DNA from: Muribaculaceae bacterium
GTDB taxonomy: Bacteria > Bacteroidota > Bacteroidia > Bacteroidales > Muribaculaceae
DNA: 64,000 nt
Direction: 5' to 3'
Assembly: GCA_017557665.1 (NCBI GenBank)
Contig: JAFYYI010000003.1
Span: 1 to 64,000, forward strand
Below the pieces are notes generated by a model that saw only the letters and a program-made list of their open reading frames with translations, was not told the DNA's origin and did no database searches. The translations under genes and the position numbers were made by a program. Shown here piece by piece: positions 40,405 to 53,001 of this stretch (within the stretch, counting starts at the first letter, position 1; every line of letters begins with the position of its first letter).

Positions 40405-40500
40405 TAGTTTCTAGTCCCTAGTCCCTAGTTTCTAGATTTTGTTGAAATTTAAAGTACAATAACTATCACCTAACACCTAAAGCCTAACACCTAAAGCCTA
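40405..40500. repeat. Pyrimidine-rich simple repeats between panC and panD
   Basis: CTAGTCCCTAGTCCCTAG near 40409-40432 and CACCTAAAGCCTAACACCTA near 40470-40500 form two short direct-repeat runs. The second runs into the panC stop codon. Confidence 0.8.
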
Positions 40501-41346
40501 AAGCCTCTTATAAGTAATATTGTCGATCTCGCGCACGTCGCCGCAATAGACGGTGATGCAGCCCACGATGTAGTCGCTGTCGTCCCAATTGGTCACGGGC
40601 TGCAAGGTGATGCCGTCACAGATCGAGAAATACTCCGTTTCCATCTCGGGCCAAGCGTTGATAGTGGCCACTACCCAGTCGTGGGTCTGCTCCACGGTGT
40701 GATCCTTGGCGAACTCCAGACTGCGCTGCAGGGTGGCATAGATCTGCGGGGCAACCTTGCGCACCTCGGGGGTGAGGCGCACGTTGCGGCTGCTCTTGGC
40801 CAGGCCGTCTTCTTCACGGATGCAGGGACACTGCACGATATCGATGTCAAATTCCAGTTGCTTGATCATCGCGCGGATGACGGCAATCTGCTGGAAGTCC
40901 TTCTCGCCGAAGTAGGCGCGGTCGGGCATCACCCAGGAGAAGAGTTTGCTCACGATTTGGCACACGCCGTTGAAGTGTCCGGGACGCATGGCGCCTTCCA
41001 TCACTTGCTGGACGGGACCGAGGTCAAACACGCGGGTGTCGGGTTCGGGATAGATTTCCTCGACGGTGGGCATGAATGCCACATCGACACCACAACCCTC
41101 AAGCATCGCGGCGTCGCGCTCGGCGGTGCGGGGATAGGTGCGCAGGTCTTCCTTGTTGTTGAACTGCGTGGGGTTCAGGAAACAGCTCACCACGAGGGCG
41201 TCATTCTCCTTGCGGGCACGATCGATCAGCGACTTGTGACCCTCGTGCAGGGCACCCATCGTGGGCACCAAACCTACTGACTTACCTGCCTGGCGAAAGG
41301 CCTGAACGGCCTCGCGCAACTCATTGACCTTGCTGATAATCTTCAT
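40498..41346 (-). CDS. panC: Pantothenate synthetase
   Basis: PanC joins pantoate and beta-alanine with ATP. The 282-residue protein has [14 protein letters not shown] (H34, H37), [41 protein letters not shown] and the KMSKS-like KSSRNVRL. The next gene is panD, which supplies beta-alanine. panB is not in the window. Its promoter at 41380-41411 is well formed. Confidence 0.96.
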
Positions 41347-41379
41347 TCTTCTTTAATTATAAGATGTGAATTCAAACTG

Positions 41380-41411
41380 CAAAATTACTACTCTTCACGC
41401 ATTTAGGCAAA
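41380..41411 (-). promoter_or_regulatory. Promoter of panC-panD
   Basis: On the minus strand TTTG (41411-41408) and TAATTTTG (41387-41380) are exactly 20 bases apart. The panC start is 34 bases downstream. Confidence 0.8.
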
Positions 41412-41744
41412 AAACGTGCCAACTTTTTATTTTCTCAGACAACTTTGACAACTATTATAGACAACAATGACAACAACAATACGTTTGAGCCTCATGGTCC
41501 ACAAAGCAACAACAATAAGTACAATAAATACAAATTATTGTGCCACAATTAAATAAAGACAACTCAAACAACTTGAACAACTATTTGGGCTATCTCGCTT
41601 GTGTTGGCGTCAAAAAGCAATTGAGCCATTTTGTGTCCAATTATCATAATCCACTGGTTAACAGCCTGATGTATTGTCTTCGCTAAAAACATACATGTGC
41701 GGGGGGATTGTTAAAAGCAAAAATTGCCTATTCTCCCCACGCTA

Positions 41745-41776
41745 CAAAGATACGTTCCAGCCACAACCTTAACAAT
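41745..41776 (-). promoter_or_regulatory. Orphan promoter-like site in the gap
   Basis: TATCTTTG on the minus strand (41752-41745) with ATTG at 41776-41773, 20 bases away. No gene starts within 390 bases downstream. The region just downstream has complementary G and C runs (GGGGAGAA and CAATCCCCCC on the minus strand), so a small RNA is possible. Confidence 0.4.
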
Positions 41777-41825
41777 GACAAAAAGCAGGTACAAAAATAA
41801 CCCACTCAAGAGTTTTTTATATTTC

Positions 41826-41907
41826 ACACGAATGCCCATCAATGTTCATGAATGCTCATAAATAAATATTTTTATGGTAATTCGTGGTCATTTTTGGCCA
41901 TTCGTGT
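41826..41907 (-). terminator. Inverted repeat downstream of the ATPase-TOPRIM gene
   Basis: ACACGAATGCCCA (41826-41838) and TGGCCATTCGTGT (41895-41907) pair with one mismatch; additional CATGAATG/ATTCGTGG-type words lie in the loop. Repeats built on ATTCGTG are common in Bacteroidetes gaps. It may end the defence operon transcript. Confidence 0.5.
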
Positions 41908-41948
41908 TTTTTACATTAAGAAGAAATTTTCCTAATTACTTGCCTTAA

Positions 41949-43559
41949 TTATTGCCTTTTGAAAATGCAATCTTCTAGTTCTTTATACACTTTAGTATCT
42001 TGTGTAACATATTGTGATAATTGTTTCTTAAACGTTTCTGCGTTAACTGAAATTTTCATATTGCAGAAATTTTTAATTCTACCTGTTTCATCTTTTAAAT
42101 GTTGATTATTAATGTCTGTTACATAGGCATCATAATCTGATTCTGAGAAGATTAAGCCATTTGACTGGCAATAGCGCATTAAAACCTCTTTATCATACAA
42201 ATAATTCTCTAACTCCCAACGCTTAATCACCCTATGATTATCTGGATTATTTTTTAAATATAGAATACGATCATTTTCTTCATTCAAAGCACCGGAAGAC
42301 ATGTCTCTATCTTTACAAACCCAAATTTCCAAATCTGGAAAAACTTTTCCTAATATTGCAAGAGCAATATTGCTTCTTTGATCTAGTTCAGTGTTGCCAC
42401 CACTCGAAACAAATAATGTGTCTGGATATGCTTCCCCAAATATAGTATTATATACCTGGGCATCCATTCCTTTTTCTTGTCCTAATGCTCCTGGTTTGTC
42501 TTTTCCTTCGCAATATACAATACGCTTAGGAGATACTAGTCCTGTCAAATCATCAAGAGCTGTAGAAAAAATACGGCTCCATTGATTTCGATTCTTTTGA
42601 ATTGGCGTCAATACTTGTTCAGTAGTAGCCCATGGGACATCTGCACGAAATTCTATTATTTGGCATTCATCTTTTAATTCGTCTTGAAGTGCACGCAAAA
42701 AGCCAATGCTATGTGTGGCAACCCATAATTGACAATTATTGCCAATTAATTTATTTATCTCAATGAGTAGTTTTCTTTGAATAGCTGTGTTTATATGAAG
42801 CTCAGGCTCGTCGATTAAAAAAACTGTATCATTGTATTCATCTTGCCTTAAATATAAATCAAGAAGAATATCAACGACTTCTTTTTCACCAGAAGAAAGG
42901 ACATTGAACTCAAATTCTTTTCCATCATAGTCTGACTTGCTAAAGAACAGAGACCCTTTATTTTCTTCAATACTTCCAATGCTTGTAATGTACAAGTCAA
43001 GACACTTGCTTAATGATCTATTCAATTCTCCAATAATATAATTCTTTGCTTCCGATGGCTTACAATCCTGCTCGTATAAATATTTATTAAACTTAATATA
43101 TAAACGTCGATAATTACTCTCCATCTTATCATCAATATCAACAGAAAGGCTGGCTCCGTAATTATTTAAGCGTAGCTCGGGAACGGCCTTGCTCTCAGCG
43201 ACTTTCAAATTGCTATTATATCTATACGGGCTCCTAAAAGAAAATATTGTATTCTCTTTTCCCTCTGTTCGTTTTCTTGAATATACATCCCTAAAAGTAC
43301 CATTAATAAAGTCAATGCTGATTCTTTCATAATTATATGAAGGATTTTGCTCAATTGAATGGTAATGATAGTCCTTATGCTTTTTGTCTCCCAACTTTGA
43401 ATAAGAATTGTTTAGAAAAAGTAATCCATCAAATACACTGCTCTTTCCACAACCATTGGGGCCAACTAATGCAACTATTCTTTTGGGATTTTCGCCTAAG
43501 TCTATTGTTAAAGACTTAAATCTTTTATAACCGTCTAATTTTATTTTTTTTATATACAT
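41949..43559 (-). CDS. AAA ATPase fused to a TOPRIM/DUF4435-like domain (AriA-AriB-like)
   Basis: The 536-residue protein has an SMC/ABC-type ATPase: Walker A GPNGCGKS (33-40), signature LSSGEKE (221-227), Walker B VFLIDEPELH (246-255) and H283 in VATHS. The C-terminal part carries TOPRIM-like acidic residues E351 (YCEGKDKPG) and D417/D419 (CKDRDM), followed by KRWELENYLYD (446-456), typical of DUF4435 nucleases. This is OLD-like, and the pairing resembles the PARIS proteins AriA and AriB joined in one chain. It starts 15 bases after the specificity-subunit gene. It is visibly AT-rich compared with housekeeping neighbours. A defence effector role is inferred. Confidence 0.75.
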   Translation of the reverse strand: MYIKKIKLDGYKRFKSLTIDLGENPKRIVALVGPNGCGKSSVFDGLLFLNNSYSKLGDKKHKDYHYHSIEQNPSYNYERISIDFINGTFRDVYSRKRTEGKENTIFSFRSPYRYNSNLKVAESKAVPELRLNNYGASLSVDIDDKMESNYRRLYIKFNKYLYEQDCKPSEAKNYIIGELNRSLSKCLDLYITSIGSIEENKGSLFFSKSDYDGKEFEFNVLSSGEKEVVDILLDLYLRQDEYNDTVFLIDEPELHINTAIQRKLLIEINKLIGNNCQLWVATHSIGFLRALQDELKDECQIIEFRADVPWATTEQVLTPIQKNRNQWSRIFSTALDDLTGLVSPKRIVYCEGKDKPGALGQEKGMDAQVYNTIFGEAYPDTLFVSSGGNTELDQRSNIALAILGKVFPDLEIWVCKDRDMSSGALNEENDRILYLKNNPDNHRVIKRWELENYLYDKEVLMRYCQSNGLIFSESDYDAYVTDINNQHLKDETGRIKNFCNMKISVNAETFKKQLSQYVTQDTKVYKELEDCIFKRQ

Positions 43560-43574
43560 TGTTTTATCTATATT

Positions 43575-44936
43575 CTAAAGTAAGGTATTTTCAAATTCTT
43601 TTATAGCTGCTTCTCTCATTGCCTGAGCTTTCTGTTTAAGCTCTTTTGCTTTGGATTTTTGTTGTTCAATATGAGTAGCAATCTCATTTTGAATGGCTAA
43701 TGGCGGAATGACCACATCGTAATTCTTTATTTTTCCAGCATTCAAATTGGGTTGATTATTACCGCTCGCTAAGGAACGCAAATCATGATATCTACTTTGA
43801 AGATAGTACCATAGATAATCGGTTGTAACAATACTATTGTCAATATCATACAGCACAGCACATGCTTGATTAGTCGTGGCATCTATGCCCAACTTCGCCG
43901 TTCGACCTCTTGTGTCTCCTTGTCCATACATAGCGATAATAAGAGAGCCTTTAGGATAAAGTTTTGCTGAACTATTTGCAATAGCTTCCTTTGTGATATG
44001 TTCTTCGGTGTCGAGGATCACATCATTAATGACTTCGCCAGTTTTGATCCAAGGGATGGTACCACTGTAGTATTGTGATTTAGAGCGAGATGGAGTTCCT
44101 CCACTCCCCGAATGACACAAGTCTTTTATCTTAACAATAGGGTATTTAAATGAGTCCTGTTTCTGTCTATTCTGAATGATGTCTATTCCCCATTCTGCAA
44201 TTGAACGATAATTAACAAAACGCAACAAGTAGTTTCCGCTATTGTTTTCTTTTACTTGAGCAGTTTTAACACCCAACATATTGGTTATGTAAGCTTCGAT
44301 GCTTTCTTCTATTTTGTCTGCTTTCTGCCCTAAATTGCATGCCTCTTGAATTTTTGCATTGTATTCTGAAACAATCTTCTCTTGTTTTTTAATTGAGGGG
44401 AGAGGAATCTGCTGCTGCAAAAACATCTGAACATCAATACGTTGTCTGTTTGTTGTTCCACTACTGCATGATTGTGCAAATTCCACAAATGCTTTTGTTG
44501 TGGTAACAAGTAGCAAGAATGATGGATTTATCATTGTTTCATCAATGTGGAAAACAGGGAAATCATTTGTAACTATGGCTCCTTCCAACTCATCTGGAAT
44601 GATACCAAAAGCCCCATTACGGGCATCTATTTTTGAGAATACAAATTGACCTTTCCGGACAACCGTTTGTTTTTTGGTCCCGATATCTAAGCCTCTTTTC
44701 TTCCCTCTTTCAACAACACCACCATTATTGGTCTTTAATGTTATTTGGGTATAAATGGTACTGTCATCTAATTCAATAACATCAGTATTTTTGGCTAGAA
44801 ATGAGCCTATTGGACTTAATTTATAACTTTGATTATATGTGATACTTCGTGCAACTATACCAGCTACACTCCAATTAACTAACCTTTTGAAGTGTTCAAA
44901 GTGTAATATGTTTGACTTGCCCTCGGTCATAATCAT
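43575..44936 (-). CDS. hsdS: Type I restriction-modification specificity subunit (HsdS)
   Basis: The 453-residue protein has two target-recognition halves, each followed by a conserved helix: IPLPSIKKQEKIVSEYNA (middle) and IPPLAIQNEIATHIEQQKS (end). The second half contains SGSGGTPSRSKSQYYSG and GSLIIAMYGQGDTRGR, frequent in HsdS. It should set the DNA target of the upstream methyltransferase. It overlaps that gene by 4 bases (ATGA). Both halves seem full, so a bipartite target site is likely. Confidence 0.9.
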   Translation of the reverse strand: MIMTEGKSNILHFEHFKRLVNWSVAGIVARSITYNQSYKLSPIGSFLAKNTDVIELDDSTIYTQITLKTNNGGVVERGKKRGLDIGTKKQTVVRKGQFVFSKIDARNGAFGIIPDELEGAIVTNDFPVFHIDETMINPSFLLLVTTTKAFVEFAQSCSSGTTNRQRIDVQMFLQQQIPLPSIKKQEKIVSEYNAKIQEACNLGQKADKIEESIEAYITNMLGVKTAQVKENNSGNYLLRFVNYRSIAEWGIDIIQNRQKQDSFKYPIVKIKDLCHSGSGGTPSRSKSQYYSGTIPWIKTGEVINDVILDTEEHITKEAIANSSAKLYPKGSLIIAMYGQGDTRGRTAKLGIDATTNQACAVLYDIDNSIVTTDYLWYYLQSRYHDLRSLASGNNQPNLNAGKIKNYDVVIPPLAIQNEIATHIEQQKSKAKELKQKAQAMREAAIKEFENTLL

Positions 44937-47200
44937 ATAGAATAAAAGATTTCAGGTTCACTAGCGACACCATTAGTTATAAATTGGCGATACAAATTGC
45001 CTTCACTGTCTGAATCATACTGCGAGACTTTTGTTATTATTTCCCACATGGCATGCACCTCCCGATAGGCTTTGAACTCTTCTGCTAACGGAATGAGCTC
45101 ATTCTCAATCTCGGCGCCGGTTGTGCTGATACCCGCCTTTTTGACCTCGGCAATCGGTATCTCGTAGTCAAATTTCTCTTTGACAATAGCTTTTACCTCT
45201 ATGTCAATCCTTTCATGCAATGCTTTAAGCTTCGCCTTGCAAGCCTTTTTCTCTTCCTTGGAAAGAGCTTCTTTTCCTCTTTTCTTCAATTGTTCTTCAA
45301 GGTCCTTGATGTCATCCTTGTATTTAGATTCTACATTCACTCGTGCCTGGTGCCTAATCTGATTATAGGTGTTCTCTTCATCTTGAGTGAACTTTTTAAA
45401 GAAGAGAAGACTTGGTTTGACGGTCGCGCCAGATGCAATGAACACATCTTGCGGGATGGAAACAATCAACAAGATTTTTGCCCGCCCCTCTACGAATTCA
45501 CGTGCCTTTTGCAGATTCGTGTTGTTCAGTACGCCCTCAGGTAAGACGATGCCCATGCGGCCACCTGGCTTCAAAAGATTCAGGCAGCGCTCAATAAACA
45601 AGACTTCGGTCAATCCGCTATCTATCTTATAAAGCTTTAATAGCGATTTGTCCACATTGTCATTTACTTGCCGCAGAGCTCTTTCGTATTCATCGCCATA
45701 TCTCTTTTTGTACTCAGCTATTTTAACTTCATCGGTAAATCTGTCGGCCTCGGTGATTTTCAAATCTTTTTCCACACGAGATCCAAAAGGAGGATTGGTG
45801 AGAATCACATCGAAACGGTTCTCAAAAATGCCGTTGACATTCAGCAATCCATCATGATGGTGAACACCACCATGCCCGTCGCCATGCATAATCATATTCA
45901 TTTTGGCTGTGCGTGCCATTCGGGGATTAGCATCGGTTCCATAGATGCAGTCAAATGATAATTCTCGTAAGCGCCCCTTTGCATTATTGATGTTTAACTC
46001 CTCATTCATGTATGAGAACATCTGCGAAACTTTTCCATCTATTTCAAGTTTCTTTTCGGTGGGCATCTTGTCGTAATCATCACCATAGTATTGGGCTTTA
46101 ATGGCATCCTTTTGGCTCTCGACATCTCTCTCAATCTTCTCACGCACATATTCGAAAGCTTTGATTAAGAAACCTCCACTGCCACAGCACGGGTCACAAA
46201 CCAATTCGCCCTCTTGAGGATCAAGCACAGAAACCATAAAATCCACAATTGTTCTAGGTGTGAAGAATTGTCCCAACTCACCACGGAATGTCTTTCCCAA
46301 GAATTTCTCAAAGGCGATGCCCTTCACGTCATCGGAGGTCGTTGAGAGGTTGTAAACTTCCAGTTCTTTTACGATTTGCTCAAAACTGTTCTCTCGTATT
46401 CTGATAATCTCATTTTCTTCGAACAAATGGTCACCTGCAAACTCTTGTTTTGTTAAATCGAAAAGATGTTGATAAAAGGGCTTCTCATCCTTTATTTTCA
46501 ATTCTTTGTTATAATCTTCTCTGCTTTTCTTAAGTGCTTGGAACCGTTCTGCTGAGAAAATTTGTGAATCAGAGTTGCTTCTTTCGTAACGTATCTTGAT
46601 GAAAAGGATTTTGCTGATTTCATCAAAGGCTGCTTCGGGCGAAAGTTTGTCATTGTTGCGAATAATGTTGTGGCATTTGAACAACAGTCTTGAGAACTCA
46701 TCGCGAGTGAAGGCTTTTGTCTGGTTCAACAATTTTTTCACCTTCTTTTCATCTGTTGCTACCTCAGCGGTAGGAATATCAACAATTTCCTCAAGTTTCT
46801 TGGGCAGCTCTCCTTTAACGACTTTAAAGACACGAGTTTCCTTTAGGTTGGTGGTCACAAAGAAATCTGCACCAGCCCATGCCGCATAGTTATAGCCTTG
46901 ATAGTAATCTTCCTTGCGGATTGTAACATTTTCCGCTTTACATTCAACCACAATAAAGGCACTTTTACTATCTACTTTATCTTTAGTTGATCTCCAAATA
47001 ACAATATCTGCTCGGGCTGCTCCTTGGCCCCGCTGAGAGTTGGTCACTTGCACCTCTTGGTCCATTTGATCTTTAGAATAGCCGTAACTATTGACAAGGC
47101 GACAAATGTATTGTTGGCGCACTTCTTCCTCTGGTTTCAGCACAAACCAATCATCTTTTAGTGGAGCGTATATTTTGTTGTTTTTAATCTGGACTTCCAT
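44933..47200 (-). CDS. Nuclease-methyltransferase fusion of a type I-like RM system (HsdM with HsdR-N-like domain)
   Basis: The 755-residue protein begins with a PD-(D/E)xK-like domain: D65 in ARADIVIW, E86-x-K88 in VECKAE, and a following Q101. Then comes an N6-adenine methyltransferase with the helical bundle, GQFFTPRTIVDFM, SAM motif DPCCGSGGF (336-344) and NPPF (469-472). The C-terminal 150 residues include a charged coiled coil (DIKDLEEQLKKRGKEALSKE). No helicase HsdR gene is in the cluster, so cutting might rely on this domain (type IIG-like) or be absent. It is the first of three tightly spaced RM-island genes. Confidence 0.88.
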   Translation of the reverse strand: MEVQIKNNKIYAPLKDDWFVLKPEEEVRQQYICRLVNSYGYSKDQMDQEVQVTNSQRGQGAARADIVIWRSTKDKVDSKSAFIVVECKAENVTIRKEDYYQGYNYAAWAGADFFVTTNLKETRVFKVVKGELPKKLEEIVDIPTAEVATDEKKVKKLLNQTKAFTRDEFSRLLFKCHNIIRNNDKLSPEAAFDEISKILFIKIRYERSNSDSQIFSAERFQALKKSREDYNKELKIKDEKPFYQHLFDLTKQEFAGDHLFEENEIIRIRENSFEQIVKELEVYNLSTTSDDVKGIAFEKFLGKTFRGELGQFFTPRTIVDFMVSVLDPQEGELVCDPCCGSGGFLIKAFEYVREKIERDVESQKDAIKAQYYGDDYDKMPTEKKLEIDGKVSQMFSYMNEELNINNAKGRLRELSFDCIYGTDANPRMARTAKMNMIMHGDGHGGVHHHDGLLNVNGIFENRFDVILTNPPFGSRVEKDLKITEADRFTDEVKIAEYKKRYGDEYERALRQVNDNVDKSLLKLYKIDSGLTEVLFIERCLNLLKPGGRMGIVLPEGVLNNTNLQKAREFVEGRAKILLIVSIPQDVFIASGATVKPSLLFFKKFTQDEENTYNQIRHQARVNVESKYKDDIKDLEEQLKKRGKEALSKEEKKACKAKLKALHERIDIEVKAIVKEKFDYEIPIAEVKKAGISTTGAEIENELIPLAEEFKAYREVHAMWEIITKVSQYDSDSEGNLYRQFITNGVASEPEIFYSI

Positions 47201-47244
47201 ATTCTAAGGAGGTTTATATTAGGTGATTAATGACGGTTGGGGAA

Positions 47245-47652
47245 TTAAAAGCATGCGGCGGTTAGTTCTTTGCCGAGTTTGTGGATGTGGTCGAGGATTT
47301 TCTGTTCGCGTTCGACAGATGGTTTCTTGAAGCCGTTGATGTAGTTGCGTAGCAGGGTGGCGTTCATGCCGATTGAGCGGGCAAATTCGGCGACGTTGAT
47401 TTCCTTGTGGGTCAAGAAAAAACGTTGCATCGGTGTGGGTTCAGCGTCATCATAGGTGAAACTCTCAAAACTGATGTCCTCGTCGAGGACTCGCCAGTGG
47501 ATGCCGCCGAGGCCGAAGGTATATTCGGCTCGTTGCTCATCGCTGGCGGTTCTCAGTTTTGGATACCAAAGCAATGACTGGCGGTATTCATTCCCGCTTT
47601 CATCTGCGCCATAGATGTAGTCGGTATCAAACCAAATTTTTATAATTTTCAT
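47245..47652 (-). CDS. DUF2442 domain protein with C-terminal HTH
   Basis: The 135-residue protein has an N-terminal DUF2442 region (IWFDTDYIYGADESGNEY to VLDEDISFESF) and a C-terminal XRE-like helix-turn-helix (NVAEFARSIGMNATLLRNYI, about 86-105). DUF2442 occurs in antitoxin-like proteins. It ends 45 bases before the methyltransferase gene and is first in the operon, so it could be its control protein. This role is inferred from position. Confidence 0.75.
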   Translation of the reverse strand: MKIIKIWFDTDYIYGADESGNEYRQSLLWYPKLRTASDEQRAEYTFGLGGIHWRVLDEDISFESFTYDDAEPTPMQRFFLTHKEINVAEFARSIGMNATLLRNYINGFKKPSVEREQKILDHIHKLGKELTAACF

Positions 47653-47680: not shown

Positions 47681-47688
47681 CAAAGATA
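47681..47688 (-). promoter_or_regulatory. -7 box for the RM operon
   Basis: TATCTTTG on the minus strand, 28 bases upstream of the start at 47652, matches TAnnTTTG. It would drive the four-gene defence operon. Confidence 0.6.
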
Positions 47689-48181: not shown

Positions 48182-48658
48182 ATGAACGAACTGGAAAGCA
48201 AATTTGCACAAACCATCAAGCAGAACAAGAGCACCATCTATACCGTGTGCTACATGTTCTCGAAAGATGCCGACGAGGTGAACGACCTCTTCCAAGAGGC
48301 GATCATCAACCTGTGGCGGGGCTTTGAGGGTTTTGAGAACCGCAGCAACGTGAAGACGTGGATCTACCGCGTGGCGCTGAACACCTGTATATCCCAGGAG
48401 CGCAAGAAGCGCCGCTCGGTCGCCGAGCCGCTGTCGATGAACATCAACCTGTTTGAGGACCACGACGAGGATACCCGCCAGGTGGGCATGCTGCACAAGC
48501 GCATCAGCCGCTTACAGCCCTTTGACCGCGCCATCGTACTGCTGTGGCTGGAAAATATGCCCTACGATGAAATCGGCCAAGTGGTGGGCATCTCGACGAC
48601 AGCCGTGGCAACCCGCCTGTACCGCATTAAAGAACAACTCAAAAAAATGAACGATTAA
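48182..48658 (+). CDS. ECF-type RNA polymerase sigma factor
   Basis: The 158-residue protein has sigma region 2 (YTVCYMFSKDADEVNDLFQE, WRGFEGFENRSNVKTWIYRV) and region 4 (RLQPFDRAIVLLWLENMPYD, GISTTAVATRLYRIKEQL). It lacks regions 1 and 3, so it is an ECF sigma factor. The next gene encodes a membrane protein that starts 17 bases downstream and may be its regulator. The target regulon is unknown. Confidence 0.9.
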   Translation: MNELESKFAQTIKQNKSTIYTVCYMFSKDADEVNDLFQEAIINLWRGFEGFENRSNVKTWIYRVALNTCISQERKKRRSVAEPLSMNINLFEDHDEDTRQVGMLHKRISRLQPFDRAIVLLWLENMPYDEIGQVVGISTTAVATRLYRIKEQLKKMND

Positions 48659-52096: not shown

Positions 52097-52135
52097 TTGA
52101 CATTGCTTGAAAAACACATTCAAGCCAAACCACTT

Positions 52136-52390
52136 GCGGCACTTTTTCGCAAGGTTGCCTCGAAGAGGCTTAACGGGTCGAAAGTTCGAAGAGGCTCGTA
52201 AGCGTCGGCACTTTTCCGCAGGGTCGCCTCGAAGAGGCCTAACGGGTCGAAAGTTCGATGAGGCCCGTAAGCGTCGGCACTTTTCCGCAGGGTCGCCTCG
52301 AAGAGGCCTAACGGGTCGAAAGTTAGATGAGGTCCGCAAGCATCGGCATTTTTCCGCAGGTTCGCCTCGAAGAGGCCTAACGGGTCGAAG
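52136..52390 (+). repeat. 69-bp tandem array, three full units and a partial fourth
   Basis: Units repeat at exactly 69 bases (reference points 52155, 52224, 52293 and 52362). Each contains GCCTCGAAGAGGC, AACGGGTCGAA and CGTAAGCGTCGGCA or close variants. The fourth unit runs into the left inverted repeat of the RAYT element. Because 69 is a multiple of three, reading frames stay open on both strands; I do not regard these as genes. Confidence 0.92.
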
Positions 52391-52446
52391 ACCCGGTTTC
52401 AATGAGAAACACCATGCAAGACCCTCGAAGAGGGTCGCAGCTTGGT
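52382..52446 (+). repeat. RAYT element, left inverted repeat (REP-like)
   Basis: This arm contains hairpin GGGTCGAAGACCC (52382-52394), the shared word GAGAAACACCATGCAAG (52404-52420), hairpin GACCCTCGAAGAGGGTC (52420-52436) and GCAGCTTGGT (52437-52446). It is the imperfect reverse complement of 53041-53105 beyond the transposase gene. Confidence 0.88.
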
Positions 52447-52499
52447 GCTGAAGATAGCAAAGAAAGTGCGTCGAAGACGAACTTCTTCCCTCTCACAGA

Positions 52500-52529
52500 T
52501 TGCGACATCAAGAGTTTTCCTTACCTTTG
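52500..52529 (+). promoter_or_regulatory. Promoter of the RAYT transposase gene
   Basis: TACCTTTG (52522-52529) is preceded by TTG at 52500-52502, 19 bases away. The transposase ATG is at 52558, so the gene has its own host-type promoter. Confidence 0.6.
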
Positions 52530-52557
52530 CATCTCAATCCATTTACTCAGATTTGTT

Positions 52558-53001
52558 ATGAGCGCAGTCAGTTCGATGTATCATGTTGTCATCAACACTT
52601 ATCGTCGCCAGATGACCATTCCCGATGAGACGAGCGAGCATCTGTATCGTTACATTTGGTCAATTGTCAAGAGCCGTGGTTGCCGCCTTTATCGCATCAA
52701 TGGCATTGCTAACCATGTTCACATGCTCATTGAGTTGGCCCCGACAGTCGCATTGAGCGACTTAGTGCGTGATATCAAACAGGGTAGCAGCAAATGGGCT
52801 AAACAACAAGTCTATTTCCCGCAATTCAGTGGATGGGGCAAGGAGTATGGTGCTTTTTCATGCAGCAGCCGAGATAAGGACAGGATTGCCGGTTACATCA
52901 TTAATCAGCGGGAACACCACAAGGCGAGTTCGTTTGAGGAGGAGTACAGACAGATGATTGAGCTATCGGGAATAGAATGGAACGATAATCGCCTGACCTG
53001 A
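52558..53001 (+). CDS. REP-associated tyrosine transposase (IS200/IS605 TnpA family)
   Basis: The 147-residue protein is a Y1 transposase: MYHVVINTYRRQ at the start, the HUH metal motif H53-V-H55 in GIANHVHMLIEL and the likely nucleophile Y113 in AGYIINQREHH. Such enzymes cut single-stranded DNA at hairpins. ATG 52558 is chosen from the promoter box at 52522 and homology; the frame upstream is unrelated. The flanking inverted hairpin repeats and the lack of a TnpB gene suggest a RAYT. The gene appears intact. Confidence 0.88.
   Translation: MSAVSSMYHVVINTYRRQMTIPDETSEHLYRYIWSIVKSRGCRLYRINGIANHVHMLIELAPTVALSDLVRDIKQGSSKWAKQQVYFPQFSGWGKEYGAFSCSSRDKDRIAGYIINQREHHKASSFEEEYRQMIELSGIEWNDNRLT

Follow-up and report, generated by a model that had tools for sequence, protein, structure and literature searches.

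A BcgI-like restriction-modification pair followed by a PARIS-like ATPase-TOPRIM gene in Muribaculaceae: a candidate two-layer defence operon

What does a gene for an ATPase fused to a TOPRIM nuclease do immediately behind a restriction-modification (RM) gene pair? The question is raised by contig JAFYYI010000003.1 of a Muribaculaceae bacterium (assembly GCA_017557665.1), whose first 64,000 nucleotides, the whole stretch analysed and called the window below, contain a minus-strand operon of four genes, encoding a DUF2442 and helix-turn-helix (HTH) protein, a nuclease-methyltransferase (MTase) fusion, an HsdS-type specificity subunit (S) and a single-chain ATPase-TOPRIM protein. An initial annotation read the last of these as a one-gene PARIS allied to the RM genes; we retain the PARIS-like one-chain gene, and drop its fixed partnership with this RM pair. 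It seems somewhat probable to us that the locus is a two-layer defence operon, in which a BcgI-like RM fusion and its HsdS are joined by a PARIS-like single-chain effector, placed in an exchangeable slot. Sequence comparison shows the gene order, the domains, the invariant catalytic residues, the recurrence of the slot and the different ATPase clade found in it here.

The RM fusion and its specificity subunit

The RM fusion joins an HSDR_N_2 nuclease domain (residues 23-143), where D65 and E86xK88 form a PD-(D/E)XK-like motif, to an N6-MTase part with the motifs D336PCCGSGG and N469PPF; the nuclease and MTase motif residues are invariant in 9/9 aligned rows, window included. The HsdS carries two Methylase_S stretches. 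Four HsdR queries gave no tblastn match within the 64 kb window, to which the search was confined, and to this extent the earlier description of an RM-like operon without HsdR stands. As judged from sequence, a single RM chain and a separate S, with HsdR absent from the window, make up the layout of BcgI and Type IIB enzymes, the architecture of BcgI being one RM chain plus a separate S (PMC3874165). The likeness to BcgI and BsaXI extends to the MTase part, which matches RM.BsaXI (8w0p, E 6.6e-24), while the HSDR_N_2 nature of the nuclease domain and the ATPase effector attached to the operon set the window apart. The further proposal, that the ATPase is the missing effector of an HsdR-less system, has to be reconsidered, a nuclease domain with an invariant motif being present in the RM fusion.

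Relatives of the RM fusion number at least 7,998 proteins at E <= 1e-60. By group, they were found in 8 of 393 Bacteroidales genomes (order of G001), 2 of 246 genomes from the G003 order (Empedobacter), 3 of 398 from the G007 phylum (Succiniclasticum), 2 of 71 from the G325 family (one already counted) and 3 of 72,556 plasmid records; a search of the G800 phylum (Marinomonas, Pseudomonadota; 349 genomes), run without positive control, found none. These counts were obtained with E limits from 1e-60 to 1e-150, and the taxon names of the groups were deduced from the loci giving the search centres. Genomes holding the window-type ATPase contain partial MTase matches only (4 of 10 at E <= 1e-10), and the RM fusion was detected in none of seven at E <= 1e-60. 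In PADLOC, the RM+S operons are not recognised as one system: the models assign a type I methyltransferase, a type I specificity subunit and, separately, a match to PtuA or AriAB.

In the viral contigs L081, L083, L085 and L087, an RM fusion (about 45% identity) and its S lie near phage portal-like proteins, accompanied in L083 and L087 by protease/capsid-like genes (all by eye); they are perhaps a prophage-borne methylation module. Behind the RM fusion of L092, the contig breaks off within an HsdS-like fragment of reverse orientation (L092:10483-10710), as expected of invertible specificity genes.

The ATPase-TOPRIM protein

The ATPase part (residues ~1-330) features a Walker A motif (G33..G38KS40), a signature (S222-G224-E225), a Walker B motif (D250E251) and H283, and scores above the Pfam cut-offs for AAA_21 (76 bits) and AAA_15 (58 bits). 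The TOPRIM part (~345-536) does contain the residues singled out in the initial annotation, E351, D417, D419 and the stretch KRWELENYLYD (446-456): the three acidic residues and E449/Y453 of this stretch are invariant in 42/42 rows of an alignment that includes the window and reaches down to 49% identity, and the TOPRIM motif is therefore not a chance occurrence.

One-gene forms of PARIS are already known (Rousset et al. 2022, PMC9122126). With a fused AriA-AriB the window protein shares an AAA_15/AAA_21 ATPase joined to a TOPRIM whose predicted fold seems nearest to AriB, and AriAB is its best PADLOC model. An OLD nuclease was considered as the main identity but demoted to a rival, since VIA-align gave the TOPRIM a better fit to AriB; on this choice the fold alone is not decisive. 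OLD-like_TOPRIM (PF20469) was absent both from the domain scan of the window and from the 20 Pfam families matched by 36 TOPRIM segments (E up to 1), and a TOPRIM profile searched against PDB sequences returned chance matches only (E >= 0.18). The ATPase fold is also related to that of Septu (PtuA-PtuB), from which the window differs in having no PtuB/HNH gene, its nuclease being the fused TOPRIM: no minus-strand open reading frame (ORF) of at least 80 aa lies at 41347-41948, and the next large ORF downstream is a pantothenate synthetase (by eye).

Genomic context of related ATPase-TOPRIM genes

Relatives of the ATPase-TOPRIM gene were collected at 64 loci (63 genomic, one viral), 46 of which show at least 4 kb upstream, where the RM pair would lie, and 32 both 4 kb upstream and 3.5 kb downstream. 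The window RM fusion, HsdS and DUF2442 gene occur at none of the 64, and weak HsdM-like matches at three. A fixed four-gene system was rejected on this count, and with it the expectation that the ATPase would consistently neighbour the fusion MTase and HsdS. In most cases the gene stands by itself and its neighbours vary, yet at least 7 of the 64 loci adjoin type I hsd genes, several with gaps of 2-15 bases or 4-base overlaps; this figure is a lower bound, the Hsd query set being small and some contigs ending nearby. The order is hsdM, hsdM, x, hsdS, ATPase, nucleotidyltransferase-TIR, hsdR in L001; hsdM, x, hsdS, ATPase, hsdR in L044; and hsdR, x, hsdM, hsdS-like, ATPase in L017. In L030, L034 and L056 the ATPase is followed by hsdR sequence, and in L046 by a 66-residue hsdR piece. 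The family thus appears self-sufficient but repeatedly recruited to restriction operons.

The nucleotidyltransferase of L001 (L001:11689-12591), located between ATPase-TOPRIM and hsdR, is fused to a CAP12/Pycsar-type TIR and may be a further effector. L119 and L121, from the same genome, carry pairs of an AriA-like ATPase and a DUF4435 protein with, immediately behind, a gene resembling GmrSD (DUF262); the ATPase and the GmrSD-like gene were identified by eye.

The slot behind HsdS

Seen from the RM pair, the position behind HsdS is occupied by an ABC-ATPase nuclease in 9/10 informative Bacteroidota loci: PtuA and PtuB in L093 and L113, and an ATPase-TOPRIM with a PtuA-like ATPase in L091, L094, L096, L097, L108, L112 and L115; the tenth, L098, has none. 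Among viral contigs, L079 and L086 have PtuA-PtuB in the same slot, and L118 an ATPase-TOPRIM. The identity of the slot gene in L115 and L118 comes from tblastn to other ATPase-TOPRIMs, not from a family scan; L080, L092 and L095 end at a contig edge and were left out of the count. The RM chain of L097 incorporates half an S, and the gap in L096 measures 200 bases. As a background, ten genomes with the RM fusion contain 102 AAA_21 stretches in 34.7 Mb, about 3 per Mb.

In the ATPase tree, the window protein groups with the stand-alone family (support 100/99), while the ATPases of other RM operons form a clade of their own (96/90; 97/94 without long branches), and forcing the window into the latter is rejected (p-AU 0.0014). 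Judged by this tree, the window slot holds a different ATPase clade than other RM operons. In the searches made, members of the RM-linked ATPase-TOPRIM clade had RM+S as neighbours in every case: the single plasmid record (E <= 1e-30) is a Flammeovirga operon already in the collection, and the sole full-length viral match is the L118 contig, one of five partial matches being the PtuA of L079. A search of 95 Bacteroidales genomes (order of G001), run without positive control, gave no match.

It is conceivable, though we would not call it probable, that Bacteroidota carry an unnamed defence system, in which a BcgI-like HSDR_N-MTase and HsdS are followed by a near-obligatory slot for interchangeable ABC-ATPase nucleases: PtuA-PtuB, an RM-specific ATPase-TOPRIM, or a PARIS-like gene from the stand-alone family. 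If true, one type of modification module would serve as the front end to several kinds of suicide back end. Among the open-access titles and abstract openings listed, none describes a BcgI-like RM+S with a recurrent, exchangeable slot of this kind, which is no proof of novelty.

Other genes were seen at or near the slot. In L105 (phylum of G007) a 530-aa protein (L105:6539-8131) starts one base behind HsdS; it was not counted as a TIR effector, having one weak PADLOC match (1.2e-8) and nothing in Pfam. The L094 RM operon contains a second ATPase-like protein of 871 aa (L094:3624-6239), PrrC/RloC-like by eye, whose gene overlaps that of the ATPase-TOPRIM, and in L091 GmrSD lies two genes behind the ATPase-TOPRIM.

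Proposed mechanism and rival explanations

In a two-layer operon, RM fusion and HsdS would methylate adenine in a two-part site, and unmodified DNA would be cut or nicked by the RM fusion's own N-terminal nuclease, without HsdR. The ATPase-TOPRIM, built like AriA joined to AriB, would be held inactive by its ATPase part until infection is sensed; as in PARIS, the signal would most likely be an anti-restriction or DNA-mimic protein made by the phage. The TOPRIM would then cut nucleic acid, most likely tRNA, and the cell would stop. The slot after HsdS would serve as an exchangeable effector position. Trigger and tRNA target are proposed by analogy with PARIS, whose AriB is a tRNase (PMC12409363), and the two layers may be supposed to cooperate. 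Members of the ATPase-TOPRIM family are mostly found on their own and should therefore have a sensor built in; a second line of the PARIS kind is thus favoured over an effector that depends on RM for activation.

Several observations weigh against this reading. The likeness to a single-chain AriA-AriB, proposed from the beginning, holds for the ATPase and the acidic TOPRIM residues, but Pfam DUF4435 misses the window protein and matched only 2 of 36 TOPRIM segments (best E 0.02). The window TOPRIM segment alone matched no PADLOC model, and profile-profile comparison by hhalign gave weak support, with a probability of 14% for DUF4435 and less than 2% for OLD and for RM-linked TOPRIMs. Also unlike fused PARIS, the gene is located in an RM operon, and its ATPase half has PtuA, not AriA, as the closer relative. 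The N-terminal nuclease of the RM fusion has no sequence match among solved structures, BsaXI included, and BcgI-like cutting by RM+S is therefore proposed from the architecture. The slot is mostly empty in loci from outside Bacteroidota: behind RM+S, an ATPase is missing in L104 and L106 (non-Bacteroidota, phylum of G007) or in the viral contigs L116 and L117, and none was evident by eye, without a family-model scan, in the viral contigs L081-L085 and L087-L090 (31-48% identity). L098 (order of G001) and L109 (an Acidithiobacillus plasmid) have an RM fusion without separate S or ATPase. A PARIS pair embedded in a Salmonella BREX system did not respond to Ocr (PMC11341690), and co-location is therefore no guarantee of the trigger. 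Finally, Foldseek ranked the C-terminal region of OLD (6nk8, E 2.8e-4) first, above AriB. The latter result and the layout of class 1 OLD, a one-chain ATPase-TOPRIM encoded mostly by a single gene (PMC10568477), speak for a TOPRIM that, like those of OLD, Gabija and Retron-Eco8, has DNA and not tRNA as its substrate; we take this for a real, but lesser, possibility.

Two other explanations concern the relation between ATPase and RM pair. The ATPase-TOPRIM might be the dedicated effector arm of a reduced MADS relative, directly activated by RM+S on unmodified foreign DNA, with HSDR_N as a coupling or nicking part. MADS likewise assembles an HSDR_N-MTase, an S and an AAA/ABC ATPase, and is counted among ABC-ATPase/TOPRIM systems (PMC12409363); MAD2 scores 306 bits against the RM fusion, the best stretch covering residues 7-369, and MAD5 58 bits against HsdS, and the ATPase clade usual in the slot turned up, in the plasmid, viral and 95-genome searches, only beside RM+S. 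All scores, however, are below the curated NCBIfam cut-offs (MAD2 306/720, MAD5 57.9/400, MAD3 29.8/420 bits), for which reason MADS membership was rejected, and a review places MADS with the systems that have at least five subunits (PMC12904381), the window operon having four genes. Moreover, the window ATPase family, mostly stand-alone in the 64 loci, should work without this RM pair. We regard direct activation of this kind as unlikely.

We hold equally improbable that the ATPase-TOPRIM is a passenger, a stand-alone defence gene that came by chance to lie behind hsdS and has only the transcript in common with it. Defence genes tend to cluster, RM+S was seen at none of the 64 related loci (46 with at least 4 kb upstream), and the ATPase gene differs from the RM gene in GC content (0.33 vs 0.42) and in GC at third codon positions (GC3; 0.26 vs 0.44). 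Against chance placement stand the type I hsd neighbours, several of them tightly spaced, at no fewer than 7 related loci, and a slot filled in 9/10 informative Bacteroidota loci, above the AAA_21 background.

Accessory genes within hsd and BREX operons are known, namely PrrC (PMC3874165), rloA/rloB (PMC2928727) and OLD-ABC with TOPRIM or HNH in BREX (PMC12839542). PrrC and the R-linked ORFs rloA/rloB resemble the window ATPase in their location inside hsd regions, and differ from it in belonging to other families or being split genes, and in being part of type I systems that are complete, HsdR included. Should the slot prove functional, natural operons with exchanged third genes would offer a direct test of whether there is signalling between restriction modules and abortive-infection effectors or mere action in sequence, a question that also arises for PARIS-in-BREX, PrrC and the rlo genes.

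Operon layout and neighbouring genes

The four ORFs (Table 1) lie head to tail as initially described, with a 4-base overlap between RM fusion and HsdS and 15 bases between HsdS and ATPase; the gap between DUF2442-HTH and RM fusion is 44 bases, and not 45 as first given.

Table 1. Features of the operon and its surroundings, in window coordinates
Feature	Position	Strand	Evidence
Sigma-factor-like ORF	48182..48658		by eye
TATCTTTG, match to motif TAnnTTTG	47681..47688	-	~30 bases upstream of DUF2442-HTH start
DUF2442 + HTH protein, 135 aa	47245..47652	-	DUF2442 E 3e-9; HTH_3 E 0.014
Nuclease-methyltransferase (RM) fusion, 755 aa	44933..47200	-	HSDR_N_2 E 5.8e-26; N6_Mtase E 1e-38
HsdS-type specificity subunit, 453 aa	43575..44936	-	Methylase_S E 2.3e-30; Specificity_I
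ABC/AAA_21 ATPase-TOPRIM fusion, 536 aa	41949..43559	-	AAA_21 E 6e-21; AAA_15 E 1.5e-15
Imperfect 37-base inverted repeat	41826..41907		76% complementary
Pantothenate synthetase ORF	40498..41346		by eye
IS200-like transposase	52402..53001		Y1_Tnp E 2.6e-21
ORF with repeated segments	52107..52451

The DUF2442-HTH protein is likely a regulator at the operon front; its HTH_3 score is weak and below cut-off. Ahead of RM, six related loci (L086, L093, L108, L112, L113 and L118) carry a small gene with HTH_3, a place taken in the window by DUF2442-HTH; the DUF2442 protein itself gave no tblastn match in any locus set searched. Upstream of it lies a match to TAnnTTTG, the Bacteroidota -7 promoter motif; the 7 kb scanned contain 7 such matches, where the minus-strand density of the window itself predicts 2.4, and the match is therefore weak on its own.

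GC content falls stepwise along the operon, from 0.49 in the DUF2442 gene, which may thus have another origin than the three genes behind it, to 0.42 in RM, 0.37 in S and the low value of the ATPase, as if the operon had been built from parts with different origins. Five of six neighbouring genes have GC of 0.51-0.585, the sixth, an 80-aa ORF, 0.42. Together with the patchy spread, these values suggest that the operon was acquired horizontally. Close named relatives are from Bacteroidota, Prevotella intermedia for the RM fusion (79%) and a Salinivirgaceae metagenome-assembled genome for the ATPase (77%). A tRNA-anchored island was rejected, the window containing no tRNA; so were a phage element, the ATPase having no match in 50,697 phage records and a match in a single viral contig (L064), and a plasmid element, with six weak plasmid matches (best 32% identity).

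The inverted repeat just downstream of the ATPase gene is a possible terminator. About 5 kb from the operon lies the IS200-like transposase, adjoined by the ORF with repeated segments.

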